Positions 7,570 through 42,399 of a stretch of DNA of 64,000 nucleotides are shown in pieces. The stretch lies in assembly GCF_014204795.1 (NCBI RefSeq), contig NZ_JACHMB010000001.1, positions 8,010,501 to 8,074,500 on the forward strand, given 5' to 3'. The translations under genes and the position numbers were made by a program. The number at the start of each line of letters is the position of its first letter. The stretch's first letter is position 1. Below the pieces are notes generated by a model. That model did no database searches, was not told the DNA's origin, and was given only the letters and a program-made list of their open reading frames with translations. This DNA comes from Nonomuraea jabiensis (lineage in GTDB: Bacteria > Actinomycetota > Actinomycetes > Streptosporangiales > Streptosporangiaceae).

Positions 7570-7731
7570 CGCCACTCCTCGTCCAGGTGCAGTTTTTACA
7601 AATCAGAGTGAGCTTAGGCAGGTTTTATTACAAACGCTCAAGTTTTGCGCGTTCTGCTCACCGTGATCCGCCGTCCATGCCCTCTTCCTCTTAATCTGTA
7701 GCCGAACGGACAGGGGGGAGGACGGACGCCG
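7570..7731. promoter_or_regulatory. Divergent control region, regulator and sensor kinase
   Basis: AT-rich relative to the surroundings. It holds the 15-mer TGCGCGTTCTGCTCA at 7646-7660 (also upstream of gluA) and two TTACAAA direct repeats at 7596-7602 and 7628-7634, exactly 32 bp apart, about three helical turns, as for a dimeric regulator bound on one DNA face. A GGGGGGAGG ribosome-like site near 7712-7720 precedes the kinase start. Autoregulation is inferred from position. Confidence 0.5.
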
Positions 7732-12270: not shown

Positions 12271-12579
12271 ATGACGACACCCCGTACCGGAGACCCGGAG
12301 CTGGACCGCGCGCTGGCCGAGATGGCGGCGCGGACGGCCGAGCTGGAGGAGGTGAGCCGCCTGCTGGAGGAGACCCGGGGGCGCGGCGAGAGCGCCGGCG
12401 GGCAGGTCGTCGTCGAGCTCAAGCCCACCGGCTCGCTGGCCGGGCTGCGCATCGACCCGCGGGCGATGCGGCTGGGCTCGCAGGCGCTGGCCGACGCCAT
12501 CGTGGAGGCGTTCCGGCGGGCGGAGGACGACGTGGCCGGACAGTCGTACGACCTGGCGAAGACGGTCTTCGGCACCTGA
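12271..12579 (+). CDS. YbaB/EbfC family protein
   Basis: A 102-residue protein of the YbaB/EbfC family (small dimeric nucleoid-associated or chaperone-like proteins). It has an N-terminal coiled-coil helix (MAARTAELEEVSRLLEETRG), a beta segment with VVVELKPTGSLAGLRIDPRA, and a C-terminal helix (ALADAIVEAFRRAEDDVA). In actinomycetes such variants often sit beside WXG100-like genes rather than dnaX/recR, as here, where it ends the three-gene unit 20 nt after the previous stop. The final stop codon runs into a tandem repeat array. Confidence 0.82.
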   Translation: MTTPRTGDPELDRALAEMAARTAELEEVSRLLEETRGRGESAGGQVVVELKPTGSLAGLRIDPRAMRLGSQALADAIVEAFRRAEDDVAGQSYDLAKTVFGT

Positions 12580-12580
12580 C

Positions 12581-12664
12581 CTCGCGCGCCTGACTCCGCG
12601 CGCCTGACCTCGCGCGCCTGACTCCGCGCGCCTGACCTCGCGCGCCTGACCTCGCGCGCCTGGC
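12581..12664. repeat. 14-bp tandem repeat, six units
   Basis: Six head-to-tail 14-bp units alternate between CTCGCGCGCCTGAC and TCCGCGCGCCTGAC; the last ends TGGC. Each unit holds the self-complementary GCGCGC. The array starts immediately after the YbaB gene stop, between convergent genes, and may act as a GC-rich transcription barrier. It is too short and spacer-free to be a CRISPR. Confidence 0.9.
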
Positions 12665-12722
12665 CGCCGCCGCGCACGTGCGGGACGCCGCGGTCAGCGC
12701 CGTCCGGCCGGCGTGAGCGGCT

Positions 12723-27632: not shown

Positions 27633-28286
27633 ATGCCGAGCCTGCCGGAGATCCTGCACCGTACGTTCTTCCGTGCCCTGTCCCTGCTGTCTCCGGCGGG
27701 GCAGGCGGCGCTCCTGCGCCACGTCTTCGACTGGCTGCACCGGACCCCTGACCCGTGGCAGCTCGCCACGGACAGTTACGAGCAGGACAAGTACCGCACC
27801 ACGCTCAAGCACCTGCCCGTCCGGCGGTACCGGCGGATCATCGACGTCGGGTGCAGCGAGGGCGTGTTCACGCACGTCCTCGCGGTGACGTACCCGGACG
27901 CGGAGATCATCGGGGTGGACGTGTCGGAGCGGGCCCTGGCGCGGGCGCGCGAGCGCGTGCCGCAGGACGGGCGGGTGCGCTTCATCCGGGCGGACATCCT
28001 CACGCACCGCTCCGACCAGCGCTTCGACCTGGTGTTCTGCTCCGAGACCCTCTACTACCTGGGCCGCCGCGAGCGGCTGCGGCAGGCGTCGGCGCAGCTC
28101 AGCGAGCTGCTGGTGCCCGACGGGGTGCTCGTGGCGGTCCACCCGTGGCCGGAGGCCGACCGGCTGCACCACTACCTGGACTCGCACGCGGCGCTGTCGC
28201 GCCTGACCGGGCAGGTCTACACGGCCACGCCGCGCCCGTTCGCCGTCACCGTCTACGGGACGAGAACGGCGCCGCCGCCCTCCTAG
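27633..28286 (+). CDS. SAM-dependent methyltransferase, NodS-like
   Basis: A 217-residue class I methyltransferase. Motif I is IIDVGCSEGVFTHVLA (residues about 76-91), motif II IIGVDVSERALARAR, with VRFIRADILTH and FDLVFCSETLYYLG following, the layout of NodS/TehB-like N- or O-methyltransferases. ATG 27633 with GAGAGG 5-6 nt upstream; a TTG at 27606 is not needed. Its TAG lies in a CTAG shared with the convergent CoA ligase gene, so both stops overlap. Acceptor unknown. Confidence 0.85.
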   Translation: MPSLPEILHRTFFRALSLLSPAGQAALLRHVFDWLHRTPDPWQLATDSYEQDKYRTTLKHLPVRRYRRIIDVGCSEGVFTHVLAVTYPDAEIIGVDVSERALARARERVPQDGRVRFIRADILTHRSDQRFDLVFCSETLYYLGRRERLRQASAQLSELLVPDGVLVAVHPWPEADRLHHYLDSHAALSRLTGQVYTATPRPFAVTVYGTRTAPPPS

Positions 28287-29848
28287 CCGCCGGCCTTGCC
28301 CAGGAGGTCGGCGGCGATCTGGCGGATCACCACGCGCTGGATCTTGCCGGTCGCCGTCTTCGGCAGCTCGTCCAGCACCAGGACCTCGCGTGGCCGTTTG
28401 AAGGAGGCCAGGCCCTCCCGGCAGAAGCCGATCAGCTCGCCGGCGTCCACCGTGCGGCCCGGCGCGGACACCACGCAGGCCACCGGCTTCTCCAGCCCGT
28501 CCTCGTCGATGTACGCCACGACGGCGCACTCGCCCACCGACTCGTGCTGGAGCAGCCGGGCCTCGACCTCCATCGGCGACACCCAGATGCCGCCCGCCTT
28601 GATCATGTCGTTGGAGCGGCCGAGGCACTGGTAGAAGCCGTCCTCGCCTCTGATGTAGGTGTCGCCGGTACGCAGCCACTCGCCCTGGAACACCTGCCGG
28701 GTGGTCGCCGTGCGGCACCAGTAGCCGTTGGCCACCGACTCGCCCCGGACGTACAGGTGGCCCGGCTCCCCGTCCTTGACGGGCGCGCCGGAGTCGTCGA
28801 GCAGCTTGGCCTCGTAGCCCGGCACGACGGTGCCCGAGCTGCCCGGGCGTACCCGGCCCGGGTGGTTGGAGATGAAGATGTGCAGCGCCTCCGTCGAGCC
28901 GAGGCCGTCGATGATGTCCACCCCGAAGTGCTCGGTGAAGCGGCGGTGGATCTCGGCGGGCAGCGCCTCGCCCGCCGAGACGGCCAGCCGTACGGACTGG
29001 AAGGCGCCGGCGGGGGTGTCGGAGGCGAGCAGCGCCGCGAAGAACGTCGGGCCCGCGAAGAACAGCGTCGGCCGCTCCTCGATCACCCTGGCGGCCACGC
29101 CCGCGGGGGTGGGCCGCGCCGGGTCGAGGACCGCGGTGGCACCCGCGGCCAGGGGGAAGAACAGGGAGTTGCCGATGCCGTACGCGAAGAACAGCCGCGC
29201 GACCGAGAAGCACCGGTCGTCGGGGCGGATGCCGAGGACCTGCCGCCCGTACCCCTCGTAGACCTCCCGGACGGCGCCGTGCCGGTGCATGGCCGCCTTG
29301 GGGGCGCCGGTGGTGCCGGAGGTGTAGAGCCACAGGGCGGGGGAGTCGCGCCAGGTGTCGTAGGGGAGGGCCGCCGCCCTGCCCGACTCCAGGACGTCGG
29401 ACCACAGGCACACCGGCGTCGTCTCCTCCGCCGGCGGCGGGTCGATGAGGACGAGCACCGCCACGTCGGGCGCGCTCCGCACGGCCTCGCGTACGGCCGG
29501 CGCGAACTCGGGGGTGGCCACGACGACCCTCGCCCGCGAGTCCCGGATCAGGGTGGCGAGCTCGGTGGGGTTGTACATGGTGGAGACCGGTACGGCGACC
29601 GCGCCCATGCGCATGACGGCCAGGATGGTGATCGCGGTCTCGGGGCGGTCGGACATGACGAGCAGGACCCGCTCCTCGGGGCGGACGCCCATCGTGCGTA
29701 AGCCGGCCGCGAACCTGGCGACGTGGTCGGCCAGTTGCGCGTAGGTCAGGGTGCCCGCGGGGCCGGTGATGGCGATGCGGTCGCCGTGGCCGGCTTCGAG
29801 GTGGCGGTCCACGAGAAAGACGCTGGCGTTGAACGACTCGGACGACAT
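28283..29848 (-). CDS. Benzoate-CoA ligase family enzyme
   Basis: A 521-residue AMP-forming ligase of the benzoate/4-hydroxybenzoate-CoA ligase group. Family marks: LWLYTSGTTGAPKAAMHRH (P-loop), ARLFFAYGIGNSLFFPL (a signature of benzoate-CoA ligases), GLGSTEALHIFISN, GEWLRTGDTY, LGRSNDMIKAGGIWVSP and the catalytic Lys in LPKTATGKIQR. ATG 29848 is chosen over 29914 since GGGGA lies 6 nt upstream and the protein then opens MSSESFNASVFLVDRHLEAG. It activates an aromatic acid for CoA-dependent degradation. The boxB remnant at 22 kb hints at a once fuller pathway; no other box genes are seen. Confidence 0.88.
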   Translation of the reverse strand: MSSESFNASVFLVDRHLEAGHGDRIAITGPAGTLTYAQLADHVARFAAGLRTMGVRPEERVLLVMSDRPETAITILAVMRMGAVAVPVSTMYNPTELATLIRDSRARVVVATPEFAPAVREAVRSAPDVAVLVLIDPPPAEETTPVCLWSDVLESGRAAALPYDTWRDSPALWLYTSGTTGAPKAAMHRHGAVREVYEGYGRQVLGIRPDDRCFSVARLFFAYGIGNSLFFPLAAGATAVLDPARPTPAGVAARVIEERPTLFFAGPTFFAALLASDTPAGAFQSVRLAVSAGEALPAEIHRRFTEHFGVDIIDGLGSTEALHIFISNHPGRVRPGSSGTVVPGYEAKLLDDSGAPVKDGEPGHLYVRGESVANGYWCRTATTRQVFQGEWLRTGDTYIRGEDGFYQCLGRSNDMIKAGGIWVSPMEVEARLLQHESVGECAVVAYIDEDGLEKPVACVVSAPGRTVDAGELIGFCREGLASFKRPREVLVLDELPKTATGKIQRVVIRQIAADLLGKAGG

Positions 29849-30068
29849 GGGCGTCCCCATCCGCAGGCGCGTGTACGTAGGGAAATCTTCTACATAGGAG
29901 GGATGTGGCGTCAATGACGTGTAGTACGGGCCTGCCCCGCCGTCCGGGGTTGCGGTCCCTTGGGGGAGGGGACGGGGTGTTCCGGGCTCCGGGAGGAGGG
30001 GGCCGGGGTACGGCGCCGTCCGGGGTCGCGGTCCTCCGAGGGACGGGACAGGGGGCGGAGGGTGGGGA
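29849..30068. repeat. Spacer with two copies of a short GC-rich repeat
   Basis: This 220-bp gap between two minus-strand genes carries two direct copies of GCCGTCCGGGGTYGCGGTCC at 29939-29958 and 30015-30034 (19 of 20 identical), each followed by a G-rich stretch. The first continues GGTCCCTTGGGGGAG (29954-29968), a 15-mer found again at 37486-37500. Related text forms the hairpin arm at 2641-2661. No gene is visible; a promoter for the ligase gene should lie at its left edge. Confidence 0.75.
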
Positions 30069-30821
30069 TTAGTCGAGGAGGGCGGTGAGGGCGGGGCGTT
30101 CGGTGGCGGGGAGGTAGCCGGCGTAATAGTCGTACATCGCCTTCCTCGACAGGCGGGCGGCCAGCGGGCCGTCGCCGGCGCGCATGGCGGCCAGCACCTC
30201 CTCGTGGTGCCGGATGCTCTGCCGCATCAGCGCCTCCCGATCCGGCGCGTCGGCGATCTTCTCCGAGATCAGCTTGAGCACGATCGAGCGGACCACGTCC
30301 GTGCAGATCTGGATGAGCTTGTTGCCGCTCGCCCGCGCCACCACGTCGTGGAAGGCCACGTCGGCCTCGCCGAACGTGTCCTGCCCCGCCTCCACGGCGG
30401 CCCGCATGTGCGCGACGGCCGACTCCATCTCCGCGAACTGCGCGTCGGTGCGCAGCCGGGCGGCCAGCAGGATCGCCGACGAGTCGAGCACCATCCTGAA
30501 CTGCACCAGCTCGGCCAGCGACAGCTCCTCCACCCTGGCCAGCGTGGTCATCGACTTGTGCAGCGTGGCGGGCGAGAACGGCAGCACCTCCGCGCCGTTG
30601 GGGTCGCCGGGCCGGGACCGTACCAGGCCGCGCGCCTGCAGCACCCGCAGCGCCTCGCGTACGGTGGACCGGCTGACCGAGAACTGCACCATGAGCTCCC
30701 GCTCGCTCGGCAGCCGCTCGCCCGGCGAGAGGGAGCCGCTCTCGATGGCCTCCTCGACCTGCTCCACCACCCGCTCGTAGGCGCGTACGGCACGCACCGG
30801 CTCGAACCGCGGACCACCCAT
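30069..30821 (-). CDS. GntR regulator, FadR/FCD type
   Basis: A 250-residue repressor-type regulator. N-terminal winged helix (VEEAIESGSLSPGERLPSERELMVQFSVSRSTVREALRVLQARGLV, residues about 17-65), then an all-helical FCD effector domain with likely metal-binding residues (Asp/His in EADVAFHDVVARASGN and His in IRHHEEVLAAM). ATG 30821 has AAGGGGG upstream; longer frames are not coding. Divergent from the ABC/peptidase operon at 30910, with a perfect palindrome (30871-30885) between them. An identical copy precedes the SDR gene at 41584. The likely effector is a metabolite of the transported compound. Confidence 0.92.
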   Translation of the reverse strand: MGGPRFEPVRAVRAYERVVEQVEEAIESGSLSPGERLPSERELMVQFSVSRSTVREALRVLQARGLVRSRPGDPNGAEVLPFSPATLHKSMTTLARVEELSLAELVQFRMVLDSSAILLAARLRTDAQFAEMESAVAHMRAAVEAGQDTFGEADVAFHDVVARASGNKLIQICTDVVRSIVLKLISEKIADAPDREALMRQSIRHHEEVLAAMRAGDGPLAARLSRKAMYDYYAGYLPATERPALTALLD

Positions 30822-30870
30822 GAAAGCCCCCTTGACCCGAGCTGCCGTCGACTGGCAATGTGCGTAGCCT

Positions 30871-30889
30871 ACTGGTCCGACCAGTGCAC
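30871..30889. promoter_or_regulatory. GntR operator, perfect palindrome
   Basis: ACTGGTC-C-GACCAGT at 30871-30885, a perfect 7-bp-arm palindrome of the TGGTCnGACCA type bound by FadR-family GntR proteins. It lies just 3' of TAGCCT (30865-30870), where it could block the operon promoter, and 50 bp from the GntR start, so it can serve both divergent genes. The same 19 bases (palindrome plus GCAC) recur at 42362-42380. Confidence 0.85.
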
Positions 30890-30909
30890 TAGCCAGGAGG
30901 CAGTAAGAC

Positions 30910-32406
30910 ATGAGGCGAATCGGAATCTGGATCGCCGCCGGCGGTCTCCTGCTGGGCACGGCCGCCTGCGGCGGCACCTCCAGCGGCGGCGGCGGTGCGG
31001 GCGCCCCCAAGACCCAGACCCTCTCCGTCGGATTCGTGGCCGAGCCCGCGAACCTCGACTTCACCTCGACGGAGGGCGCCGCCATCCCGCAGGCGCTGCT
31101 GGTCAACGTCTACGAGGGCCTGGTCAAGCTCGACCAGGACGGCAAGATCGTGCCGCTGCTCGCCGAGAAGTGGGACGTCTCGCCCGACCGCAAGACCTAC
31201 ACCTTCAGCCTGCGCAAGGACGTCAAGTTCAGCAGCGGCGCGCCGTTCACGGCCGACGACGTGGTGTTCTCGCTCGACCGGGTGAAGTCGGACTGGAAGC
31301 TCAAGATCAAGTCGCAGCTCGACGTCGTCGACAAGGTGGAGAAGAAGGACGACTCCACCGCCGTCGTCACGCTCAAGAAGCCGAGCAACGGCTTCCTCTA
31401 CTCGATGGCCACCAGGCTCGGCGCCATGTTCAGCCGCACCGGGGTCGCCGACCTGGCCAACAAGCCCGTCGGCACCGGCCCGTACACGCTCGGCTCCTGG
31501 CGGCGTGGCGACTCCATCCAGCTCAACTCCAACGCCTCCTACTGGGGTACGAAGCCGGCGCTGTCGTCGATCACGCTGAAGTACTTCAAGGACGCCACGG
31601 CGATGAACAACGCGCTGCTGACCGGCGGCATCGACGTCATCTCCGCCGTGCAGGCGCCCGAGTCGCTGCAGCAGTTCGCCGACCCCAACCGCTTCCAGAC
31701 GGTCGAGGGCACCACGAACGGCGAGGTCGTGCTGTCCATGAACAACAGCCGCCCGCCGTTCAACGACAAGAAGGCCAGGCAGGCCGTCCGCTACGCGATC
31801 GACCACAAGGCGCTGCTGGAGACCGCCTGGGCCGGGCGCGGCCAGCTGATCGGCTCGATGGTGCCGCCCACCGACCCCTGGTACGAGGACCGCACCGGCG
31901 ACTACCCGTACGACCCGGCCAAGGCCAAGGAGCTGCTCGGCGGCAAGACGCTCAACGTCAAGATGCGCATCCCCAACCTGCCCTACGCGGTGGCCAGCGC
32001 CCAGGTCGTCAAGTCGCAGCTCGCGCAGGTGGGGATCACCGCCGACATCGAGCCCCTGGAGTTCCCGGCCCGCTGGCTGGACGTGGTGTTCAAGCAGGGC
32101 GACTACGACCTGTCCATCATCAACCACGTCGAACCCCGCGACATGGGCATATTTGCCGACAAGTCGTACTACTTCCGTTACGACAACCCCGAGTTCGGCA
32201 AGCTCCTCGCCTCCGCCGACGAGGGCACCGAACAGCAGCAGACCGACGACCTGAAGAAGGCCGCCAAGCTGCTGTCCGACGACGCGGCCGCCGACTGGCT
32301 CTTCCTCTTCCCCAACCTGATCGTGGCGAAGAAGGGCGTCACCGGGCTGCCGAAGAACGCCATCGCGGAGTCCTTCGACTTCACCGCGCTCTCCAAGCAG
32401 CAGTGA
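30910..32406 (+). CDS. Dipeptide-type ABC substrate-binding lipoprotein
   Basis: A 498-residue family 5 extracellular binding protein. Lipoprotein signal with lipobox LLLGTAACGG (Cys near residue 20). Mature sequence shows the DppA/OppA layout: YEGLVKLDQDGKIVPLLAEKW, FTADDVVFSLDRVKSDW, VGTGPYTLGSW and FNDKKARQAVRYAIDHKALL. AGGAGG at about 30896-30900 precedes the ATG. It is the first gene of an eight-gene operon (30910-39597) whose later genes encode two hydrolases, so the substrate is probably a peptide or amide-linked compound. Confidence 0.93.
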   Translation: MRRIGIWIAAGGLLLGTAACGGTSSGGGGAGAPKTQTLSVGFVAEPANLDFTSTEGAAIPQALLVNVYEGLVKLDQDGKIVPLLAEKWDVSPDRKTYTFSLRKDVKFSSGAPFTADDVVFSLDRVKSDWKLKIKSQLDVVDKVEKKDDSTAVVTLKKPSNGFLYSMATRLGAMFSRTGVADLANKPVGTGPYTLGSWRRGDSIQLNSNASYWGTKPALSSITLKYFKDATAMNNALLTGGIDVISAVQAPESLQQFADPNRFQTVEGTTNGEVVLSMNNSRPPFNDKKARQAVRYAIDHKALLETAWAGRGQLIGSMVPPTDPWYEDRTGDYPYDPAKAKELLGGKTLNVKMRIPNLPYAVASAQVVKSQLAQVGITADIEPLEFPARWLDVVFKQGDYDLSIINHVEPRDMGIFADKSYYFRYDNPEFGKLLASADEGTEQQQTDDLKKAAKLLSDDAAADWLFLFPNLIVAKKGVTGLPKNAIAESFDFTALSKQQ

Positions 32407-33341
32407 CGCTTTACCTGATCAAACGCCTGGCGGTGCTCGTCGCGAGCACCGCCGTGGCGGGCGTGGTGGTGTTCGCGTTCATGGCGCTGCTGCCCGGCGA
32501 CCCGGCGGAGGTCGCGCTCGGCGTGAACGCCACGCCCGACGCGGTGGCGGCGCTGCGCAAGCAGTTCGGCACCGACCGGCCGCCCGTGGTGCAGTTCTTC
32601 GACTGGTTCGGCGGGCTCCTGCACGGCGACTTCGGCACCTCGTACGTGACCAGCTCGCCCATCGGCCCGCAGATCAGCGACCGGCTCGGCGTCACGGCCG
32701 TGCTGGTGCTCGGCGGGATGGTCGTGGCGCTGGTCATCGCGGTTCCGCTCGGCACGTTCGCGGCCGTGCACCACCGCAACCCGCTCGGGGCGGCCATCAG
32801 CGCGCTCAGCCAGGTCGGCATCGCGATCCCGGCGTTCCTGGCGGGCATCCTGCTGGTGTTCGTGTTCGCGGTGCAGGCCCAGGTGCTGCCGTCCGGCGGC
32901 TACGTGCCGATCGCCGAGGACCCGGCGCAGTGGCTGCTCAGCCTGCTGCTGCCGTGGCTGTCGCTCGGCCTCGTGCAGGGCGCGGTCCTGACCCGGTACG
33001 TGCGCAGCGCCGTGCTCGACGTGATGCGCGAGGACTACCTGCGCACGGCCCGCGCCAAGGGCCGGGGCAGCACCGGCGCCCTGTGGCGGCACGGCCTGCG
33101 CAACGCCTCGATCCCCGTCGTCACCGTACTCGGCCTGCAACTGGCCACGCTGCTGATCGGCGCGGTCGTGGTCGAGCGGGTCTTCGTCATCCCCGGGCTC
33201 GGCGACCTGCTGCTCAACGGCGTCGCCGGGCGTGACCTGCTGCTCGTCCAAGGTGTGGTGATGGTGCTGGTGGCGGCCGTCCTGCTGATCAACTTCGTGG
33301 TGGACGTGGCCTACCGCGTGCTCGATCCGAGGCTGCGATGA
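32403..33341 (+). CDS. Dipeptide-type ABC permease (DppB-like)
   Basis: A 312-residue permease with six TM helices. N-terminus LYLIKRLAVLVASTAVAGVVVFAF; the coupling helix region is EDYLRTARAKGRG, with the C-terminal FVIPGLGDLLLNGVAGRDLLLVQ typical of DppB/OppB. GTG start overlapping the binding-protein stop (GTGA). Forms the channel with the following DppC-like subunit. Confidence 0.93.
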   Translation: MTLYLIKRLAVLVASTAVAGVVVFAFMALLPGDPAEVALGVNATPDAVAALRKQFGTDRPPVVQFFDWFGGLLHGDFGTSYVTSSPIGPQISDRLGVTAVLVLGGMVVALVIAVPLGTFAAVHHRNPLGAAISALSQVGIAIPAFLAGILLVFVFAVQAQVLPSGGYVPIAEDPAQWLLSLLLPWLSLGLVQGAVLTRYVRSAVLDVMREDYLRTARAKGRGSTGALWRHGLRNASIPVVTVLGLQLATLLIGAVVVERVFVIPGLGDLLLNGVAGRDLLLVQGVVMVLVAAVLLINFVVDVAYRVLDPRLR

Positions 33342-34171
33342 AGGGCCGGATGAACGCCGGGCTGCTGGTCGGCGGCGTGCTCGTCGGGCTCGTGGCCCTG
33401 GCGGCGGTGGTGTCGTTCTTCTGGACGCCGCACGACCCGACGCTCGTGGACGCGGCGCGCAAGTTGCGGCAGCCGGGCGGCGGCTACCTGCTGGGGGCCG
33501 ACAAGTTCGGCCGCGACACCTTCAGCCAGCTCATGGTCGGCGCCCGGACCACGCTCTACGTGGGCATCGTGGCCGTCGGCATCGCCGCCGTCATCGGCAC
33601 GCCGCTCGGCATGATCGCCGGGATGACGCCGCGCGGCTGGCTCTCCGAGCTGATCATGCGGGTCAACGACCTGGTGTTCGCGTTCCCGGCGCTGCTGCTG
33701 GCCGTCATGCTCGGCGCCGTCTACGGGCCGGGCACGCTCACCGCGATGATCGCGATCGGCGTGGCCACCGTGCCCGCGTTCGCCCGGGTGGCCCGCGCCG
33801 CCACCCTCCAGGTCATGGTGACCGACTACATCCTGGCCGCCAGGGCCGCCGGGCGGCGCCGCCCGGCCATCGCGATGCGCCACGTGCTGCCGAACATCGG
33901 CTCCGTGCTCATCGTCCAGGCGTCGGTGTCGTTCGCGATCGCGATCCTGGCCGAGGCGGCGCTGTCGTTCCTCGGCTTCGGCACCCGCCCGCCCGTCCCG
34001 TCGTGGGGGCGGATGCTGCAGGAGTCGCAGGAGCTGCTGTTCTCGACCCCGCGCCTGGCGCTCTGGCCCGGCCTGGCGATCGCGCTCGCGGTGCTCGGCT
34101 TCAACCTCCTCGGGGACGGCCTGCGCGACTACCTCGATCCGAAGCTCAGGAGGGTCCGTGCTGAAGGTTGA
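33338..34171 (+). CDS. Dipeptide-type ABC permease (DppC-like)
   Basis: A 277-residue permease. LLGADKFGRDTFSQLMVGARTTLYVG near the N-terminus and DYILAARAAGRRRPAIAMRHVLPN (coupling region) mark a DppC/OppC subunit; the tail FNLLGDGLRDYLDPKLRR is the family standard. ATG overlaps the DppB stop by 4 nt, and its 3' end overlaps the first ATPase gene by 14 nt. Confidence 0.94.
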   Translation: MKGRMNAGLLVGGVLVGLVALAAVVSFFWTPHDPTLVDAARKLRQPGGGYLLGADKFGRDTFSQLMVGARTTLYVGIVAVGIAAVIGTPLGMIAGMTPRGWLSELIMRVNDLVFAFPALLLAVMLGAVYGPGTLTAMIAIGVATVPAFARVARAATLQVMVTDYILAARAAGRRRPAIAMRHVLPNIGSVLIVQASVSFAIAILAEAALSFLGFGTRPPVPSWGRMLQESQELLFSTPRLALWPGLAIALAVLGFNLLGDGLRDYLDPKLRRVRAEG

Positions 34172-35040
34172 GGGGCTGACGGTACGGGCCGGCTCGCTGG
34201 AGCTCGTACACGAGGTGTCGTTCGCGATCGGGCCCGGCGAGCGGGTCGGGCTGATCGGCGAGTCCGGGTCCGGCAAGTCGCTGACCGCGCTGTCGCTCAT
34301 GGGCCTGCTCCCCGAGGGCGTCACCGCCTCGGGCACGGCCACGATGGGCGCGAACGACCTGGTCGGCGTGCCCGAGAGCCGGCTGAAGCGGCTGCGCGGC
34401 CAGGAGGTCTCCATGGTCTTCCAGGAGCCCATGACCGCGCTCAACCCGCTCATGCGCATCGGCGCCCAGGTCGCCGAGGTCATGACCCTGCACGGCACGC
34501 CGCGCGCGCAGGCCCGGGAGAAGGCGCTCGACCTGCTGGAACGCGTCCGCCTGCCCGAACCTGCGCAGATCGCCCGCGCGTACCCGCACCAGCTCTCCGG
34601 CGGCCAGCGCCAGCGCGTCATGCTCGCCATCGCCCTGGCCAACGGGCCGAGCCTGCTCATCTGCGACGAGCCCACCACGGCGCTCGACGTCACCGTGCAG
34701 AAGCAGATGCTGGAGCTGATCGCCGAGGTCGCGCCCGCGCTGCTGTTCATCACCCACGACCTCGCCGTCGTGGCGTCGGTGTGCGAGCGGGTCCTGGTCA
34801 TGTACGGGGGACGCGTCGTCGAGAGCGGCCCCATCCGCGAGGTCTTCACCCGGCCCCGCCACCGCTACACCGAGGGCCTGCTGGCCGCCTCCAGGCTCAC
34901 CCCGCGCGGCACCCGGCTGCCCACCATCAAGGGCAGCGTCCCGCCGGCCGGGCAGTTCCCCGGCGGCTGCGTCTTCCGCAACCGCTGCCCGCACGCCACC
35001 CCCGAGTGCGAGACCGTACCCGCGCTGACAGGAGACGGCC

Positions 35041-35837
<797 letters not shown>

Positions 35838-35841
<4 letters not shown>

Positions 35842-37010
35842 TCGACGTCGATGCCGACGGAGTGGTGGGGTTCACCCAGGCGCTGGTGCGGATCCCCAGC
35901 ACCAACGACCCCGGCCGGCGGGAGCGGGCCGCCGCCGAGCTGGTGGCCGCCAAGATGCGGGAGTGGGGCTGGGAGCACACCGTGTACGAGGTGGAGCCGG
36001 ACCGGCCGAACGTGGTGGCCGTGGTCGAGGGCGGCGGCGGTCCCGGGCCGACCCTGATGTTCGAGGGCCACACGGACGTGGTGACCGAGGGCGACCTGTC
36101 CACCTGGACCGTGGACCCGTTCGGCGGGGAGATCCGTGACGGGAGGCTGTGGGGGCGGGGCAGCGCGGACATGAAGTCCGGCCTGGCCGCCACCCTCTAC
36201 GCCACCCGCGCCCTGCAGCTGGCTGGACCGTTCCCCGGGCGGATCAAGGTGTGCGCGCTGGCCGACGAGGAAGGTCTCATGATCGGCGCGCACCACTTCG
36301 TCTCCGAGGGGCTGACCGCCGACGTGGACGGCGCGATCGTCGCCGAGCCCGAGGCGGGCGAGATCTGCGCGGTGGCCAAGGGCGCGCTGCGGCTGCGCGT
36401 CGACTTCGCCGGCAAGATGGCGCACGGCGCCATGCCGCAGCACGGCCGCAACCCCCTCCCCGCCGTGGGCTCGCTGCTGGTGGGGCTGGGGTCGCTGCAG
36501 GAGGAGCTGCAGGGCCGGCACCCGGCGCACGAGCACCTCGGCGAGGTGTACGTGACGCCGACCGTGCTGCGGGCCGGCTCCGAGGAACAGGTGAACGTGA
36601 TCCCGGCGGCCGCCTCGGTGTTCGTGGACGTGCGGACGATCCCCGGGGTCGAGCACAAGCTGATCGCCGACCGGGTGGCCGCGCTCGCCTCCTACGACGG
36701 GATCGCCGCCGAGGTGTCGGTGCTGGTGGACCGGCCGCCGGTGGACGTGCCCGTGTCGGACCCGGTGGTGGCCGCGCTGGCCGCCGCCCACCGTACCGTC
36801 ACCGGCTCGGAGCCCGTCTACGGCGGGGTGCCGGGGTCGACGGACGGGACCGTGCTGACGCACTGGGGCGGGATCCCGTCCGTGGTGTACGGGCCGGGCG
36901 GGAAGTGGATCGCGCACCAGGCGGACGAGTTCGTGGAGGTGGCCGAGATCGTCCAGTGCACCCGAGTGTTCGCCGAGGCGGCCCGGCGCTTCCTCAGCGG
37001 GGACTTCTGA
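35838..37010 (+). CDS. M20 family metallohydrolase (ArgE/DapE-like)
   Basis: A 390-residue di-zinc peptidase/deacylase. Metal ligands and catalytic residues are in place: His in MFEGHTDVV, bridging Asp in WGRGSADMKSG, catalytic Glu pair in ADEEGLMIG, Glu in IVAEPEAG, and the last His in WIAHQADEFVE; the dimerisation lid starts at FAGKMAHGAMPQHGRNP. TTG 35838 overlaps the ATPase stop (TTGA) and has GGAGGG upstream. It would hydrolyse an N-acyl or peptide bond in the imported compound, in the cytoplasm. Specific substrate unknown. Confidence 0.92.
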
Positions 37011-38170
37011 TGCTTCCTGGACCCTCCAACTCGCTGATGGACGTGGCCGGGCTCCGGGTCGGCCACGCGCAGCGGGTCGGCGGCGGTTACCGCACGGGCA
37101 CCACCGTCGTCCTGGCCCCGCCTTCGGGGGCCGTGGCGGGGGTGGACGTGCGGGGGGCCGCTCCCGGGACCCGCGAGACCGAGCTGCTGGATCCGCGCAA
37201 CCTGGTGTCGCGCGTGCATGCCGTGGTGCTGACGGGCGGGAGCGCGTACGGGCTGTCGGCGGCGTGTGGGGTGGTGGAGCGGCTGGCGGACGCGGGCATC
37301 GGGTACCCGGTGGCCGGCGGGGTGGTGCCCATCGTGCCGGCGGCGGTCATCTTCGACCTGGGGCGCGGTGGCACGTTCCGCGCCGTCCCGGACGCCACCT
37401 TCGGCACCGCCGCCTACGACGCCGCCTGCCAAGGGACCGTAGCCACGGACGGCGGGGCGGTTGCTCTTCCGCCGTCCGTGGCGGGGGTCCCTTGGGGGAG
37501 AAGCGGGACGGGATCGCCGAACGGCGGGACGGGCGCGCCCGGCGGGTCGCCGGATGGCGGGACGGACGCGCCCGGCTGGTCGCTCGACGGTGGGGTGGGG
37601 AGTGGGTCGGTCGGGGCCGGGGTCGGGGCGCGGGCCGGGGGGCTGGCCGGAGGGGTGGGGACGGCGAGCGTCGTCCTGCCCGGCGGCGCCACCGTGGCGG
37701 CCCTGGTCGTCGCCAACCCCGTAGGCTCGGTCCTCGACCCCCGGGACGGCACCCTCGCCGGCGCCAGGTACGGCCTGCCGGGCGAGTTCGACCACCTCCA
37801 GCCCCCGCTGCAGGCCGAGATCGACGCCTGGCGCCCGCAGAACGCCCCCTCCTTCAACACCACCATCGGCGTGGTGGCCACCGACCTCACCCTCACCAAG
37901 GCCCAGTGCGGCAAGCTCGCCGCGGTCGCCCACGACGGCCTGGCCCGGGCGATCAGGCCGGCCCACACCATGACCGACGGCGACACGATCTTCGGCCTGG
38001 CCACCTGCGCCGGCCCCGAGCCCGACCACGACACCCTGCAGGAGGTCCTGGCGGCGGCGGCCGACGTGTTCAGCCGTGCCATCGCGCACGCCGTCCTCGC
38101 CGCCACCGGCCACGAGGACGCGCCCGCCTACCTCGACGTGTTCCCCAGCGCCCAACGGAAGCAGACATGA
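37010..38170 (+). CDS. P1 family (DmpA-like) aminopeptidase with an in-frame insertion
   Basis: A 386-residue member of the P1/DmpA Ntn-hydrolase-like family, which self-cleaves and removes D- or beta-amino acids or amide groups. Conserved parts: LRVGHAQ, VLTGGSAYGL and NTTIGVVATDLTLTK, where a Thr would be the autocleavage nucleophile, followed by the TMTDGDTIFGLATC tail. Between AAYDAACQ and GSGSVGAGVGARAG there is an extra, Gly/Pro-rich block of about 55 residues, not usual in the family and encoded in part by a large inverted repeat (37429-37495). The insertion keeps the frame and falls before the nucleophile, so activity may be retained. ATG overlaps the M20 stop by 1 nt. Confidence 0.87.
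   Translation: MLPGPSNSLMDVAGLRVGHAQRVGGGYRTGTTVVLAPPSGAVAGVDVRGAAPGTRETELLDPRNLVSRVHAVVLTGGSAYGLSAACGVVERLADAGIGYPVAGGVVPIVPAAVIFDLGRGGTFRAVPDATFGTAAYDAACQGTVATDGGAVALPPSVAGVPWGRSGTGSPNGGTGAPGGSPDGGTDAPGWSLDGGVGSGSVGAGVGARAGGLAGGVGTASVVLPGGATVAALVVANPVGSVLDPRDGTLAGARYGLPGEFDHLQPPLQAEIDAWRPQNAPSFNTTIGVVATDLTLTKAQCGKLAAVAHDGLARAIRPAHTMTDGDTIFGLATCAGPEPDHDTLQEVLAAAADVFSRAIAHAVLAATGHEDAPAYLDVFPSAQRKQT
37429..37495. repeat. Inverted repeat inserted inside the P1 peptidase gene
   Basis: Two 27-bp arms (37429-37455 and 37469-37495) match except for three central bases (GTA against CCC) around a 13-nt loop. Ends are CCAAGGGACC and GGTCCCTTGG. The right arm is related to the repeats at 29939 and 30015 and shares GGTCCCTTGGGGGAG with 29954-29968. 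It encodes residues that are absent from typical P1 peptidases, which suggests insertion of a mobile palindromic repeat. Confidence 0.85.
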
Positions 38171-39597
38171 GCATCGACATCGCATGGCCGTCCGGCCTGC
38201 CCATCGGCGACGGATGGGTGGAGACGGCGCAGACCGACGACGTCACCTTCCCGTACGACGGCTCTCTCGTGGCCACCGCCCCGAGGGGCGACGCCGGCCT
38301 CGCCCGGCGGGCCGTGGACGCGGCCCTGGCCGTGGCGCCCGCCATGGCGGCGCTCCCGTCGCACGCCCGCCGCGCCGCCCTCATGAAGGCCCACGACGCG
38401 CTCGCCGCCAACCGGGAGGAGTTCGAGCGGCTGCTCGTCCTCGAGACCGGCAAACCCCTGGTCGACTGCAAGGTCGAGGTCGCCAGGACGCTCGTCACGC
38501 TGGCCACGGCCGCCGAGGAGGTCGCCAGGCTGCACGGCGAGACCGTGCCGCTCGACCTGCTGCCCTCGGGCGAGGGGCTGGTGGGGTTCTGGACGCGCCG
38601 CCCGATCGGCGTGGTCGTCGGGATCACCGGCTTCAACTATCCGCTGCTCCTCGCCGCCCACAAGATCGCCCCGGCCGTGGCGGCGGGCTGCCCCGTGATC
38701 GTCAAGCCCGCGCCCGCGACCCCGCTGGCCACGCTCTGGCTCGTGCACCTCATCCGGTCGGCGGACGCGCTCCCCCCGGCCGCCGTGCAGCTCGTCACCG
38801 GGGACGTCGAGGTCGGCAGGACGCTGGTGGAGGACCGGCGGATCGGCGCCGTCTCGTTCACCGGCTCGGCCGCCGCCGGGCACGCCATCGCCCGCAACGC
38901 CGCCCCCACCAAGGTCCTGCTGGAGCTGGGGTCGAACGCGGCACTCGTCGTGGCGGCCGACGCCGACCTGGAGGCCGCCGCCGACGCGGTCGTGCGCGGC
39001 GGTTACTACGCCTCCGGCCAGGCGTGCATCTCCGTCCAGCGGGTACTGGTCGAGGAGCCCGTACGCGAGCAGTTCGTGTCCCTGCTGGCCGACCGCGTCA
39101 AGAACGTCACGGTCGGCGACCCCCGCCTGCCGGAGACCCGCGTCGCCCCGCTCATCGACGAGGCCGCCACGGACCGCGTGCTGGAGTGGATCGCCGAATC
39201 GGGGGGCGAGACGGTCACGGGCGGGCACCGCGACGGCCGGGCCATCGCGCCGACCGTGCTCGCGGGCGTCGGTGACGGGGCCGCCGCCTGGGACGAGGAG
39301 ATCTTCGGGCCGGTGGTGTGCGTGCGCCCGGTGCCCGACCTCGACGCCGCCTTCGCCGCCGTCAACGAGTCGAGGTACGGCCTGCACGCCTCGGTGTTCA
39401 CCCGGTCGCTGGCCACGGCGTTCGCGGCCATCGAGCGGATCGAGGCCGGGGGAGTGGTGGTCAACGAGGTGCCGGGGTTCCGGGCGGACAACATGCCGTA
39501 CGGCGGCGTGAAGGACTCCGGGATCGGGCGCGAGGGGCCCCGCTTCGCCATCGAGGAGCTGACGGTGACCAGGATGGCGATCATCCGGCCCGCCTAG
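38167..39597 (+). CDS. NAD(P)-dependent aldehyde dehydrogenase
   Basis: A 476-residue ALDH, closest in style to succinate-semialdehyde or benzaldehyde/vanillin dehydrogenases. FNYPLLLAAHKIAPAVAAGC and VIVKPAPATPL form the cofactor site, Glu253 in VLLELGSNAA is the general base and Cys287 in SGQACISVQRV the nucleophile; the C-terminal MPYGGVKDSGIGREG is intact. ATG overlaps the P1 peptidase stop (ATGA). As the last gene of the operon it probably oxidises an aldehyde released from the imported, hydrolysed compound, for example a semialdehyde from an omega-amino acid (inference). Confidence 0.92.
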   Translation: MSIDIAWPSGLPIGDGWVETAQTDDVTFPYDGSLVATAPRGDAGLARRAVDAALAVAPAMAALPSHARRAALMKAHDALAANREEFERLLVLETGKPLVDCKVEVARTLVTLATAAEEVARLHGETVPLDLLPSGEGLVGFWTRRPIGVVVGITGFNYPLLLAAHKIAPAVAAGCPVIVKPAPATPLATLWLVHLIRSADALPPAAVQLVTGDVEVGRTLVEDRRIGAVSFTGSAAAGHAIARNAAPTKVLLELGSNAALVVAADADLEAAADAVVRGGYYASGQACISVQRVLVEEPVREQFVSLLADRVKNVTVGDPRLPETRVAPLIDEAATDRVLEWIAESGGETVTGGHRDGRAIAPTVLAGVGDGAAAWDEEIFGPVVCVRPVPDLDAAFAAVNESRYGLHASVFTRSLATAFAAIERIEAGGVVVNEVPGFRADNMPYGGVKDSGIGREGPRFAIEELTVTRMAIIRPA

Positions 39598-39631
39598 CCG
39601 GTGCCGGGGCGACGGTCGCCGATCCCGACGG

Positions 39632-40534
39632 CTACAACCGTCCCGAGGCCTTCGACGGCCTCTTCTCTGCCTGACCGGTACGGGTGGCGGGCCTGGGGCG
39701 CCGGGCGGGGGCGTCGTGGGGGCGGGTGAGGCGGGCTTGGCGGGCGGCCTTGAAGGGCTCGGGCAGGATGCGGTTGGCCAGCCTGGTGAGCTTGGTGGCC
39801 AGGTCACCGCCGACCACGGCGTCCTTGCCGGCCATCAGGGCGCGAAAGCCCTGGGCGGCGACCTGGACGCGGCTGTTCTTCCGCGCGCCGGGGCCCAGCC
39901 GGGTGTCGTTCATGCCGGCGCGGGCGTGGAAGTCGCTGTCGGTCGCGCCGGGCAGCAGCACGGTCACGGTGACGCCTGGGGCGCGATCCTTCAGTTCCTG
40001 ACGCAGCGACTCGGCGAACATGTAGGTGAAGGCCCGCGTGGGCCCGTACACGGTCTCGTACGGGGTCGGGGTCGTCGCGGAGATGGACGAGGTGATGAGG
40101 ATCCTGCCGGTGCCGTGCTCGGCCATGTGCCGCACGACGGGCTTGGCCAGGGTGACGACGGAGGTGGCGTTGAGGGCGATGAGGTCGAGCTCGTCGTCCA
40201 GGTCGGTGTCGAGGAACGCGCCGCCCAGGCTGCGCCCGGCGTTCAGCACGGCCGCCTCCAGTCGCCGGCCGGTGTCCTGGACCGCCTGCCAGACGGCTCG
40301 CACGCCGTCGCGGTCGGCCAGGTCGGCCTGCACCGGCACCACCTGGGCGCCGTATCGCGCGAAGTCGTCGGCGATGCGGTGGATCCTGTCGCTGTGGCCG
40401 GTGGCGACCAGGTCGTAGCCGTCACGGGCGAACAGCAGGGCGAGCTGGTAGCCGATACCGGACGACGCCCCGGTGACCAGCGCCAGCGGGCGCGTGGAAC
40501 GGTCGTGGCCGGGCCGGCCGCGGGTGGTGCTCAT
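39632..40534 (-). CDS. Short-chain dehydrogenase/reductase
   Basis: A 300-residue SDR. The cofactor motif TGASSGIG is near residues 21-28, the NAG motif in AAVLNAGRS, and a catalytic Ser in ITSSISA. The expected YxxxK reads YGPTRAF: the Tyr is present but the Lys position is Arg, which may lower or alter activity. The C-terminal 40 residues are Pro/Arg-rich and run past the normal end. Its ATG overlaps the stop of the XRE regulator gene (ATGA), forming a two-gene unit; MmyB-type regulators commonly sit with the SDR they control. Confidence 0.87.
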   Translation of the reverse strand: MSTTRGRPGHDRSTRPLALVTGASSGIGYQLALLFARDGYDLVATGHSDRIHRIADDFARYGAQVVPVQADLADRDGVRAVWQAVQDTGRRLEAAVLNAGRSLGGAFLDTDLDDELDLIALNATSVVTLAKPVVRHMAEHGTGRILITSSISATTPTPYETVYGPTRAFTYMFAESLRQELKDRAPGVTVTVLLPGATDSDFHARAGMNDTRLGPGARKNSRVQVAAQGFRALMAGKDAVVGGDLATKLTRLANRILPEPFKAARQARLTRPHDAPARRPRPATRTGQAEKRPSKASGRL

Positions 40535-41427
40535 GAGGTGCTCCTGTCGGTAGGTACCGCGTTGTCGGCGCCCGCTCCGCCGGTGGCGGGATCAGCGCTC
40601 CAACTGGCCAGAAGCCTCCAGGCGTCCTGGGATGCCTGATCCTGGGCGGGCAGATAGAGAAACAGCGTCTGGTCGTCCTCACCGGGCATGGTGAAGGCCT
40701 GGTAGTCGATGGACACCGGCCCGACGACCGGGTGACGGAAGCGTTTGTGGCCGAAGGTGCGGTCCAGCACCTTGTGGTCGGCCCACCAGCGGCGGAAGTG
40801 ATCGCTCTTCATCGACAACTCGCCGACCAGTTCGGCGGTGCGGGTGTCGTCGGGGTGGCGGCCGGCGTCCAGCCGCAAGATCGCCGTCATCTCCGAGGCG
40901 ATCTGCTCCCAGTCCATGTAAAGCTCGCGGGCGGCCGGGTCCAGGATGATCCAGCGGGTCAGGTTGCGCTCCCGGAAGGGCATGGCGTCGAAGTCGGCCA
41001 TCAGCACCCGGCACAGGTGATTGGTGGCCAGGACGTCTCCCCGTCGGCCGAGGATGAACCCCGCCTGGTCGGTGAAGGAGTCCAGGAAGCGGCGCAGGCC
41101 CGGCCGGACCCGCTGGACCACGGGCGGGGCGCGGCGGACCCGGCCCGTCTGCGGCCGTACCAGGTCGGACAGGTGGGCGCGCTCGGCGTCGTCCAGCCGC
41201 AGCGCCGCGGCGACCGCCTCCAGCACGCTCGGCGATGGGCTGATCTGGCGGCCCTGCTCCAGACGCGTGTAGTAATCGGTGCTCACCCCGGCGAGCTGGG
41301 CGACCTCTTCCCGCCGCAGGCCGGGCACGCGCCGGTAGGCGCCGCGCTGGGGCAGTCCTGCCGACTCCGGGCTGATCCGGGCACGGCAGCGGCGCAGAAA
41401 CTCGCTCAGTTCCTGATTGCGTGCCAT
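40531..41427 (-). CDS. XRE regulator with MmyB-like ligand domain
   Basis: A regulator of about 298 residues. Helix-turn-helix of XRE type (RRVPGLRREEVAQLAGVSTDYYTRLEQGR, residues about 33-62) is followed by an MmyB-like domain that binds fatty-acid-like ligands (LDSFTDQAGFILGRRGDVLATN, then NLTRWIILDPAARELY and later LSMKSDHFRRWWADHKV). ATG 41427 or 41436 are both possible starts. It is co-transcribed with the SDR gene. The 41437-41583 spacer has a CCTAGG palindrome in the text TTGTCCTAGGAAG (near 41483-41495), a possible operator. Confidence 0.92.
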   Translation of the reverse strand: MARNQELSEFLRRCRARISPESAGLPQRGAYRRVPGLRREEVAQLAGVSTDYYTRLEQGRQISPSPSVLEAVAAALRLDDAERAHLSDLVRPQTGRVRRAPPVVQRVRPGLRRFLDSFTDQAGFILGRRGDVLATNHLCRVLMADFDAMPFRERNLTRWIILDPAARELYMDWEQIASEMTAILRLDAGRHPDDTRTAELVGELSMKSDHFRRWWADHKVLDRTFGHKRFRHPVVGPVSIDYQAFTMPGEDDQTLFLYLPAQDQASQDAWRLLASWSADPATGGAGADNAVPTDRSTS

Positions 41428-41583
41428 GTCTTTCATCCTGCCTGCGCCGCCGCCCTGCCACCGGCCCGGTAGGGGGGTCGCCTTGTCCTAGGAAGCTGCT
41501 GCCCCCGCAGGTCAACGCCATGCCCAGGTCCCGGATCGCCCCCTCGCCGGCACCGGTGAAGGGGGACGGACGCCCCGACGGGC

Positions 41584-42345
41584 CTAGTTGGGCGGGTCGA
41601 AGCGGCCGTCCACGGCCGTCCAGCCGCCGTCGACGTACAGGACCGAGCCGGTCACGAAGCTGGCCGCGTCGCCGGCCAGGTAGACCACCGCGCCGGCCAT
41701 CTCCTGCGCCGTCGCCCACCGGCCGAGCGCGCTCTTGTTCGCGTACGCGGCGTACCAGTCGGGATTGTCCTTGATCTGCCTGGTCAGCGGCGTCTCCACG
41801 ACGCCGGGCGCGATGGCGTTCACCCGCACCCCGTGCGGCCCGAACTCGGCCGCCGCCGTCCGCAGCAGCTGCACCAGGCCCGCCTTCGTGGCCGAGTAGA
41901 CGCCCTGCCCCGGCTCGGTCACGGACGCGCGGATCGAGGCGAACCCGATGATCGACCCGCGCCCCCGCTCGACCATGCCCGCACCGAAGGCCCGCACCAC
42001 GTCGAACGAGGCCCGCAGGTTCAGCCCCACCACCCGGTCGAACTCCTCGCCGGAGTAGTCGAGCAGCCGCTTGCGGACGTTCGTGGCGGCCGTGAACACC
42101 AGCACGTCGGCGGGCTCCTCCCCGGCGGCCCTCCGCACCTCGGCGGCGTCCAGCACGTCGAGCAGCCGGGCGTCGCCGCCGCACGCGGCGGCGGTCTCCT
42201 CGGCCGAGGCCAGGTCGCGGTCGGCGCACACCACGGAAGCCCCGTGGGCGGCCAGCGCCAGCGCCGCCTCCCGGCCGATCCCGCTCCCCGCCCCGATCAC
42301 CACGGCCCGCCGCCCATCCAGGCGGAACAGCGCGTCATATCCCAT
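41584..42345 (-). CDS. SDR oxidoreductase under the GntR operator
   Basis: A classical SDR of about 253 residues: VVIGAGSGIGREAA (cofactor), a NAG-like site reading FTAATNVRK, the catalytic Ser in FASIRAS and YSATKAG, with the C-terminal TGSVLYVDGGWTAV found in 3-oxoacyl-ACP-reductase or gluconate-dehydrogenase-like members. ATG 42345 lies 7 nt after TAGGGT (42358-42353), so it is leaderless; GTG 42354 is an alternative. A copy of the GntR operator (42362-42380) lies between -10 and the expected -35. It is therefore probably induced with the 30.9-39.6 kb operon and may reduce or oxidise an intermediate of the same pathway. Confidence 0.92.
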   Translation of the reverse strand: MGYDALFRLDGRRAVVIGAGSGIGREAALALAAHGASVVCADRDLASAEETAAACGGDARLLDVLDAAEVRRAAGEEPADVLVFTAATNVRKRLLDYSGEEFDRVVGLNLRASFDVVRAFGAGMVERGRGSIIGFASIRASVTEPGQGVYSATKAGLVQLLRTAAAEFGPHGVRVNAIAPGVVETPLTRQIKDNPDWYAAYANKSALGRWATAQEMAGAVVYLAGDAASFVTGSVLYVDGGWTAVDGRFDPPN

Positions 42346-42361
42346 ACGAGGCACCCTAGCG

Positions 42362-42380
42362 ACTGGTCCGACCAGTGCAC
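42362..42380. promoter_or_regulatory. Second GntR operator copy
   Basis: ACTGGTCCGACCAGTGCAC, identical over 19 bases to 30871-30889. It falls within the promoter spacer of the minus-strand SDR gene, where binding should block RNA polymerase. It links this gene to the regulator at 30069-30821. Confidence 0.85.
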
Positions 42381-42399
42381 CAGGTTGGGGGTCAGCGCG

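Follow-up and report, generated by a model that had tools for sequence, protein, structure and literature searches.

A two-operator GntR regulon in Nonomuraea jabiensis and its relatives as a candidate pathway for pantothenate degradation

The 64,000-nucleotide stretch of Nonomuraea jabiensis analyzed here (the window; positions 8,010,501-8,074,500 of a single-contig genome of 13,173,116 bases) carries a gene for a GntR-family regulator, a divergent eight-gene operon and a gene for a short-chain dehydrogenase/reductase (SDR). The operon encodes an ATP-binding cassette (ABC) importer, an M20 amidohydrolase, a P1/S58 hydrolase and an aldehyde dehydrogenase (ALDH). An original prediction, made by a model from the sequence alone, had linked the operon to the SDR gene through identical operators. 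We propose, with a probability of roughly 0.55, that this regulon and its relatives represent a pathway for the degradation of pantothenate (vitamin B5). It would comprise a candidate pantothenase, pantoate 4-dehydrogenase and dehydropantoate dehydrogenase under a dedicated repressor, with a dimethylmalate dehydrogenase in relatives, and related SDR-amidohydrolase modules would reach across Actinomycetota and into Thermus.

The identical 19-mer ACTGGTCCGACCAGTGCAC was confirmed from the sequence at 30871-30889 and 42362-42380. Its 15-mer, ACTGGTCNGACCAGT, is palindromic about a centre base that is free to vary and occurs at two places in the whole 13.17-Mb genome, both inside the window, with about 0.03 expected from the base composition of the window. 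The reversed pattern, used as a control, occurs once. The hundreds of promoter-unrelated copies that would have refuted the original prediction were thus not seen. Allowing up to one mismatch, ACTGGTCNGACCAGT matched six places versus 18 for the control; there is therefore no halo of near copies around the genome. These near matches yielded no convincing further target; three of the four one-mismatch places were read (L135-L137) and matched no query protein. The shorter 11-base core TGGTCNGACCA was found 22 times, versus 25 for its control, which is chance level and uninformative.

The length of the repeat is a poorer guide. The window holds 51 distinct repeated 19-mers, 42 of them wholly within tandem arrays. 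The nine outside comprise the operator 19-mer and eight from three other pairs of places, which by our own reading are within open frames. Since repeated 19-mers are common in the window, we placed the weight on conservation and not on the 19-nt match itself. The palindrome plus four bases is identical at both places, but those four bases (GCAC) proved to be part of a longer conserved extension, CTRGTGCAC, beside the arms.

Conservation was assessed in a sample of 54 genomes of the genus, with a GntR match called at E 1e-30 or better. Named relatives with a GntR at least 74% identical were Nonomuraea, one of them filed as [Actinomadura] parvosata. The GntR was matched in 50 of the 54 genomes (in one of them as two pieces), the 15-mer was present in 50 and the SDR in 51. 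The genomes lacking the 15-mer were the same four that gave no GntR match: G007, G032 (63% complete), G037 and G040. This coincidence has a probability of 3e-6 if genomes are independent, a figure that kinship makes a guide only. Exactly two sites were present in 45 of the 50 genomes; G004, G026 and G048 have a third, and G003 and G052 have only one. Telling against these counts, the reversed control was found at 45 places and at least once in 34 of the 54 genomes. The control is a different palindrome, and its copy in the N. jabiensis genome lies 4.8 Mb away. Since it is not rare in the genus, the per-genome counts are weak and the positions of the sites carry the argument. The control palindrome itself (TGACCAGNCTGGTCA; G000:C1:12863312-12863326), present up to twice per genome in those 34 genomes, is commoner than base composition suggests and is perhaps another regulator's site.

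Positions were read in the best 30 of the 50 genomes with the GntR and the best 30 of the 51 with the SDR. An exact site lay 47-53 nt from gntR in all 30 GntR loci (49 nt in the window) and, in 28 of the 30 SDR loci, 7-11 nt from where the SDR match begins. The two misses were L127 (G052), with one mismatch, and L126 (G007), with no site within two mismatches. The exactness of the arms follows from how the sites were picked, and the adjoining extension is free of that selection. In the first 50 aligned columns of the 28 SDR promoters, mean identity was 43%, whereas CCTGGTGCACTGGTCNGACCAGT is nearly invariant. The contrast was weaker on the GntR side, where the far flank averages 77% and lies partly inside the binding-protein gene. 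The centre base was G in 20, T in eight and C in two loci on the GntR side, and G in 11, A in nine and T in eight on the SDR side. In 20 of the 34 listed two-site genomes the two centres differ in class (one A/T, the other C/G), and the repeat is therefore not a recent copy. About 11 nt from the operator centre there is a weaker half site (TRGT); half sites of this kind are reported for GntR-family sites in the part of PMC4494728 consulted.

Genome G007 gave no GntR match, and its 19-kb stretch had one weak hit only (E 0.43), located elsewhere. It keeps the importer, M20 and SDR, with no P1 or ALDH in the stretch read. Its operator 1 (L140) carries one mismatch, and in its SDR promoter the palindrome is lost while a TTAGGGT resembling a -10 element persists. 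Such decay is as expected after loss of a repressor, though the cluster is reduced as well. In L072 (N. antri) the regulator, importer and M20 are kept without P1. Genomes G004 and G026 carry a further exact site, placed before a P1 paralogue that is 52-53% identical where matched (in L139, the site at 6938 and the gene at 7039-8667; in L138, the site at 6989). By eye, the G026 paralogue is a 542-aa frame that begins like a signal peptide and ends in a hydrophobic, basic stretch resembling a membrane anchor, and it is possible that it is a secreted third member of the regulon that prepares food for the importer. A similar site precedes the P1 gene in a Dactylosporangium metagenome-assembled genome (L074).

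We found 24 GntR loci outside the genus, several of them cut by contig ends. Thirteen had a site with at most one mismatch, five a site with two mismatches and six none so close, compared with 0.08 places within two mismatches in shuffles of one 25-kb locus. Gene presence was scored at tblastn E 1e-15 in 22 of them (L100 and L101 excluded): ALDH was present in 19, SDR in 18, an amide hydrolase (M20, P1, amidase or HyuAB-like) in 18 and an isopropylmalate/tartrate-type beta-decarboxylating dehydrogenase (betaDH) in 12. In four Pseudonocardiaceae loci (L083, L086, L093 and L095), SDR-ALDH-betaDH occurs with genes that look HyuA/HyuB-like by eye and replace M20/amidase. Homologues of the SDR turned up in 21 of 396 sampled genomes of the phylum and in 19 of 394 sampled from the class. 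Of the 34 distinct ones outside Nonomuraea, 26 loci were fetched; an exact site was present in eight and a site with one mismatch in one more (L194), an amide hydrolase in 23 (in L181 at only 30% identity) and betaDH in four.

Several of these loci place the site before the whole pathway. It precedes betaDH-binding protein-permeases-ATPases-M20-ALDH-SDR, in one direction throughout, in L186 and L192, lies between an amidase gene and betaDH-ABC-P1-ALDH-SDR in L190, and precedes ABC-M20-P1-ALDH-SDR in L187. L199 has one site before the importer and a second, with one mismatch, before ALDH-SDR, a layout close to the two-operator layout of the window. Neither the family f19 clusters nor the Thermus clusters have such a site. 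Taken together, genus-wide co-occurrence, the footprint, operator decay in G007 and the clusters in other lineages support the claim that a regulon joins the operon and the SDR gene. The GntR is very probably the local repressor of a two-operator regulon made up of its own gene, the operon and the SDR gene.

The regulator and its operator are ordinary in kind. The protein has an N-terminal GntR winged helix (PF00392, 77.4 bits, cut-off 27) and an FCD effector domain (PF07729, 79.4 bits, cut-off 24.3), and its best-scoring solved chain is 2di3, which we take to be Corynebacterium LldR. Near its own gene lies a palindrome with the GT-N3-AC spacing (TGGTCNGACCA) that marks the FadR subfamily. It stayed below cut-off in every NCBIfam model among the matches listed (25 of 27), scoring 38.5 of 189 for FadR, 74.7 of 311 for LldR and 119.8 of 260 for NanR, and is therefore filed as FadR-subfamily and not as FadR, LldR or NanR. 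The same scores speak against an E. coli-type FadR, LldR, NanR or PdhR. FadR, LldR and PdhR of E. coli share its winged-helix and FCD domains, but their target genes are unlike those here. In agreement with the original prediction of a FadR-type palindrome, the operator corresponds to the published FadR consensus AACTGGTCNGACCAGTT minus its outermost bases (PMC3626644, consulted in part) and fits the LldR box AAnTGGTCnGACCAnTT (PMC10272880, likewise in part). The arrangement at operator 1, one site between divergent genes, is the same as that in the excerpt of PMC4494728. What sets this regulon apart is an unusually clean genus-wide two-operator design, and the pathway lifts its interest further.

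Bacterial breakdown of vitamin B5 was described biochemically decades ago. The classical route leads from pantothenate through pantoate, aldopantoate and 3,3-dimethylmalate to 2-oxoisovalerate. In Pseudomonas the enzymes are pantothenase (EC 3.5.1.22), pantoate 4-dehydrogenase (1.1.1.106), dehydropantoate dehydrogenase (1.2.1.33) and dimethylmalate dehydrogenase (1.1.1.84). Papers of 1966 and 1979 on this breakdown are cited in PMC10393543, the consulted part of which called the identity of pantothenase 'currently unknown' in 2023. In the open-access literature searched, no genes of pantothenate breakdown were named and no paper describing its steps turned up; within that literature the pathway reading is new.

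The regulon probably breaks down pantothenate or a pantetheine-like precursor, and the regulon and this substrate taken together are a shade less probable. The importer would take up a pantoyl amide, which the M20 enzyme, with P1 for larger forms, would split into pantoate and beta-alanine. The SDR would then oxidize the hydroxymethyl group of pantoate to an aldehyde and the ALDH would make 3,3-dimethylmalate, from which the betaDH found in many relatives' clusters, and absent from the window operon, would give 2-oxoisovalerate. Pantothenate is suggested because the chemistry calls for an acid held in amide linkage that yields a 3-substituted malate once its alcohol and then its aldehyde are oxidized. 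Import, amide cleavage, aldehyde oxidation and an SDR step had all been foreseen and this chemistry stands, but the SDR, placed earlier as a further step, most likely makes the aldehyde that the ALDH consumes. The 'peptide-like' substrate is sharpened here to a pantoyl amide such as pantothenate, which we infer from the enzyme types. The relatives' clusters hold one enzyme of each type needed for the Pseudomonas breakdown, a likeness by enzyme type only, and the window operon lacks the last of them.

Clusters in relatives also bring in betaDH, panC, or genes for a semialdehyde dehydrogenase and an aminotransferase. In the tree, which has some long branches and some modest supports, the betaDH sequences fall into two clades, of which one neighbours LeuB and the other stands away from it; the function was thus apparently recruited on two occasions. 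On the Arthrobacter dokdonellae plasmid pDCT5, panC is next to GntR-SDR-ALDH with a divergent betaDH, followed further on by genes named as an E2 subunit, an acyl-CoA dehydrogenase and the methylcitrate cycle. Two genomes of one genus (L177 and L178) have an M20-SDR-energy-coupling factor (ECF) transporter-panC run that contains their sole panC; the S component of the transporter was recognized by PF12822 and the T component by eye. On one plasmid of Thermus thermophilus, genes for a methylmalonate-semialdehyde dehydrogenase, a class III aminotransferase, the SDR, the M20 enzyme and an importer stand in a row; on two other Thermus plasmids the dehydrogenase, SDR and M20 genes also occur together. 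M20 is thus beside SDR in three Thermus plasmids, and 14 of the 16 plasmid records matching M20 are Thermus. In the part of PMC6572756 consulted, Cupriavidus necator uses beta-alanine through aptA-mmsA1. The Thermus plasmid pairs SDR-M20 with the same enzyme types, a class III aminotransferase and a CoA-acylating methylmalonate-semialdehyde dehydrogenase, but the window operon has no counterparts of the C. necator genes.

The conserved operators tie together the enzyme types of the pathway, and several old activities become directly testable. If true, the proposal would show how soil and thermophilic bacteria consume a vitamin on which others depend, and would correct names such as '3-isopropylmalate dehydrogenase' on members of the relatives' clusters.

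Comparative sequence evidence carries the regulon and its operators, and from it we infer repression, the effector, the substrate and each enzyme step. A number of observations weigh against pantothenate. First, the final enzyme is missing close to home: betaDH was absent from the window and from all 30 Nonomuraea GntR loci, several of them cut by contig ends. The N. jabiensis genome yielded no dedicated betaDH: its closest matches are LeuB, a tartrate dehydrogenase and one more homologue, and no operator was seen for them in the stretches read, even with one mismatch allowed. G007 and L071 (N. wenchangensis) keep the importer, M20 and SDR with no ALDH or P1 nearby, and L071 also keeps the GntR. 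Second, panC was matched in none of the 54 GntR loci and in only two of the 26 SDR loci, and four of the ten genomes searched had no panC match anywhere. The panC links thus depend on two events. Furthermore, pDCT5 has no operator within two mismatches, its panC also neighbours menB-type and transhydrogenase genes on its other side, and the ECF S component in the panC runs has no assigned substrate.

Third, a transporter of the Streptomyces cluster that was considered as PanF-like is a symporter nearer to the monocarboxylate permease MctP than to PanF. The 2-oxoacid dehydrogenase E1 genes of L179 (an f19 cluster) are nearest to pyruvate dehydrogenase, below cut-off, and the Thermus plasmid aminotransferase belongs to the uncharacterised family PRK06062. 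Finally, relatives differ in their hydrolases, a pattern that would also suit a variety of amides. Two f19 genomes related to those of L177 and L178 (G248 and G301) carry M20-SDR and gave no panC match at all. A candidate aminotransferase gene in Arthrobacter-type clusters was rejected, as it reads as a transporter by eye.

The variable hydrolases lead to the strongest alternative, in which the same regulon and repressor serve another amide (a beta-peptide, lactam, nylon-type oligomer or N-acyl omega-amino acid) and the SDR and ALDH act on a different alcohol. Hydrolases of nylon and of lactams are known from the P1, amidase and HyuAB families. P1/S58 and amidase families are present, as are the HyuA/HyuB-like genes of the four Pseudonocardiaceae clusters, and the importer is of the dipeptide type. 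Another amide would leave unexplained why two betaDH clades joined the clusters and why panC is adjacent, and we consider it possible but on balance doubtful. It is unlikely, in turn, that the system serves pantothenate or pantoate salvage, with the hydrolases freeing beta-alanine, the SDR standing in as ketopantoate reductase and PanC rebuilding pantothenate. The M20-SDR-ECF-panC runs in one genus would suit such a role, and labelling in E. coli showed cleavage and rebuilding of pantothenate (PMC10393543, part consulted), but salvage has no place for the ALDH, betaDH or methylcitrate genes.

Two further alternatives concern the operators. Both sites could be operators of another FadR-type protein, with the adjacent GntR a bystander: a first look gave 141 loose GntR candidates in the N. 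jabiensis genome, and the operator is of the common FadR/LldR type. This is very improbable given that GntR and site share presence and absence across the 54 genomes, that all 30 loci place the site some 50 nt from gntR, and that the operators have decayed where GntR gave no match. That the repeat arose by chance or recent duplication, as the other repeated 19-mers of the window might suggest, is refuted by the genome-wide count (0.03 expected), the footprint and the genus-wide conservation of both places with differing centre bases, and its likelihood is negligible.

Family scans and open frames agree with the original prediction of a GntR gene and a divergent eight-gene ABC/M20/P1/ALDH operon around operator 1 (Table 1). 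The top NCBIfam match of ABC ATPase 2 was a dipeptide importer ATPase, below its cut-off. The ALDH, the last gene of the operon, had no NCBIfam model over cut-off among the matches listed (25 of 45). The SDR starts at the ATG at 42345; a GTG at 42354 is also possible.

Table 1. Regulator, operators, operon and SDR gene, in window coordinates
Feature	Position	Strand	Basis
FadR-subfamily GntR regulator, proposed repressor	30069..30821	-	PF00392 and PF07729
Possible overlapping -10 elements TAGCCT (+), TAGGCT (-)	30865..30871	both	By eye; stretch conserved
Operator 1, ACTGGTCCGACCAGT	30871..30885	none	Between gntR and operon; exact in 30/30 GntR loci
Operator 1 conserved extension, GCACTAGC (other strand GCTAGTGC)	30886..30893	none	Conserved, 30 aligned loci
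Family-5 solute-binding protein of ABC importer	30910..32406	+	PF00496, 280.2 bits
ABC permease 1	32403..33341	+	Open frame, place, conservation in relatives; start by eye
ABC permease 2	33338..34171	+	Open frame, place, conservation in relatives
ABC ATPase 1	34158..35072	+	Open frame, place, conservation in relatives
ABC ATPase 2	35041..35841	+	PF00005, 130.3 bits
M20 ArgE/DapE-type amidohydrolase, candidate pantothenase	35838..37010	+	TIGR01910, 259.6 bits (cut-off 217.6)
P1/S58 hydrolase, second amide hydrolase	37010..38170	+	PF03576, 186.2 bits
ALDH, candidate aldopantoate dehydrogenase	38167..39597	+	PF00171, 443.8 bits
SDR, candidate pantoate 4-dehydrogenase	41584..42345	-	PF13561, 191.8 bits
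-10-like TAGGGT	42353..42358	-	7 nt before ATG; by eye; mostly conserved in 28 SDR promoters
Operator 2, ACTGGTCCGACCAGT	42362..42376	none	Before SDR; exact in 28/30 SDR loci
Operator 2 conserved extension, GCACCAGG (other strand CCTGGTGC)	42377..42384	none	Aligned SDR loci

The two operators would act at promoters. A scan for sigma-70-type consensus promoters found nothing, and the -10 elements were called by eye. TAGCCT (30865-30870) and, on the other strand, TAGGCT (30871-30866) both adjoin or overlap operator 1, which is followed by AGGAGG at 30895-30900 before the binding-protein ATG. Operator 2 is directly upstream of TAGGGT (42358-42353). With only 7 nt between this element and the ATG, the SDR gene may be transcribed without a leader. 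The two operator placements would suit steric repression, with GntR binding ACTGGTCNGACCAGT over or beside the start sites and releasing it when an acid of the pathway accumulates.

The SDR gene is not distant from the operon, as had been claimed, since only two genes separate it from the ALDH gene. These are an SDR2-XRE pair at 39632-41436 whose genes overlap by four bases and which looks as if it had been inserted. In G002, the closest relative by GntR (97%) and SDR (98%) identity, the ALDH and SDR genes are neighbours that face each other without this pair. The SDR gene is therefore the far end of a compact cluster, and the pair was set aside as a member of the regulon. A benzoate-CoA-ligase-family gene (28283-29914) was provisionally set aside as well. 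It also follows gntR in G002, and a copy at least 69% identical lies 1.8-9.5 kb from gntR in 15 loci, in 14 of them in the opposite orientation; the site scan found no operator of its own.

Two minor observations concern other repeats. Two FadR-type palindromes, TGGTCCGACCA and TGGTCAGACCA, lie 16 bp apart at G000:C1:101565-101591 (L003, 1501-1527), upstream of a stretch that by eye resembles another regulator gene; no other two of the 22 core sites in the N. jabiensis genome lie so close together. Within the window, a tandem array at 12575-12675 consists of about six copies of the 14-bp unit CCTGACCTCGCGCG.

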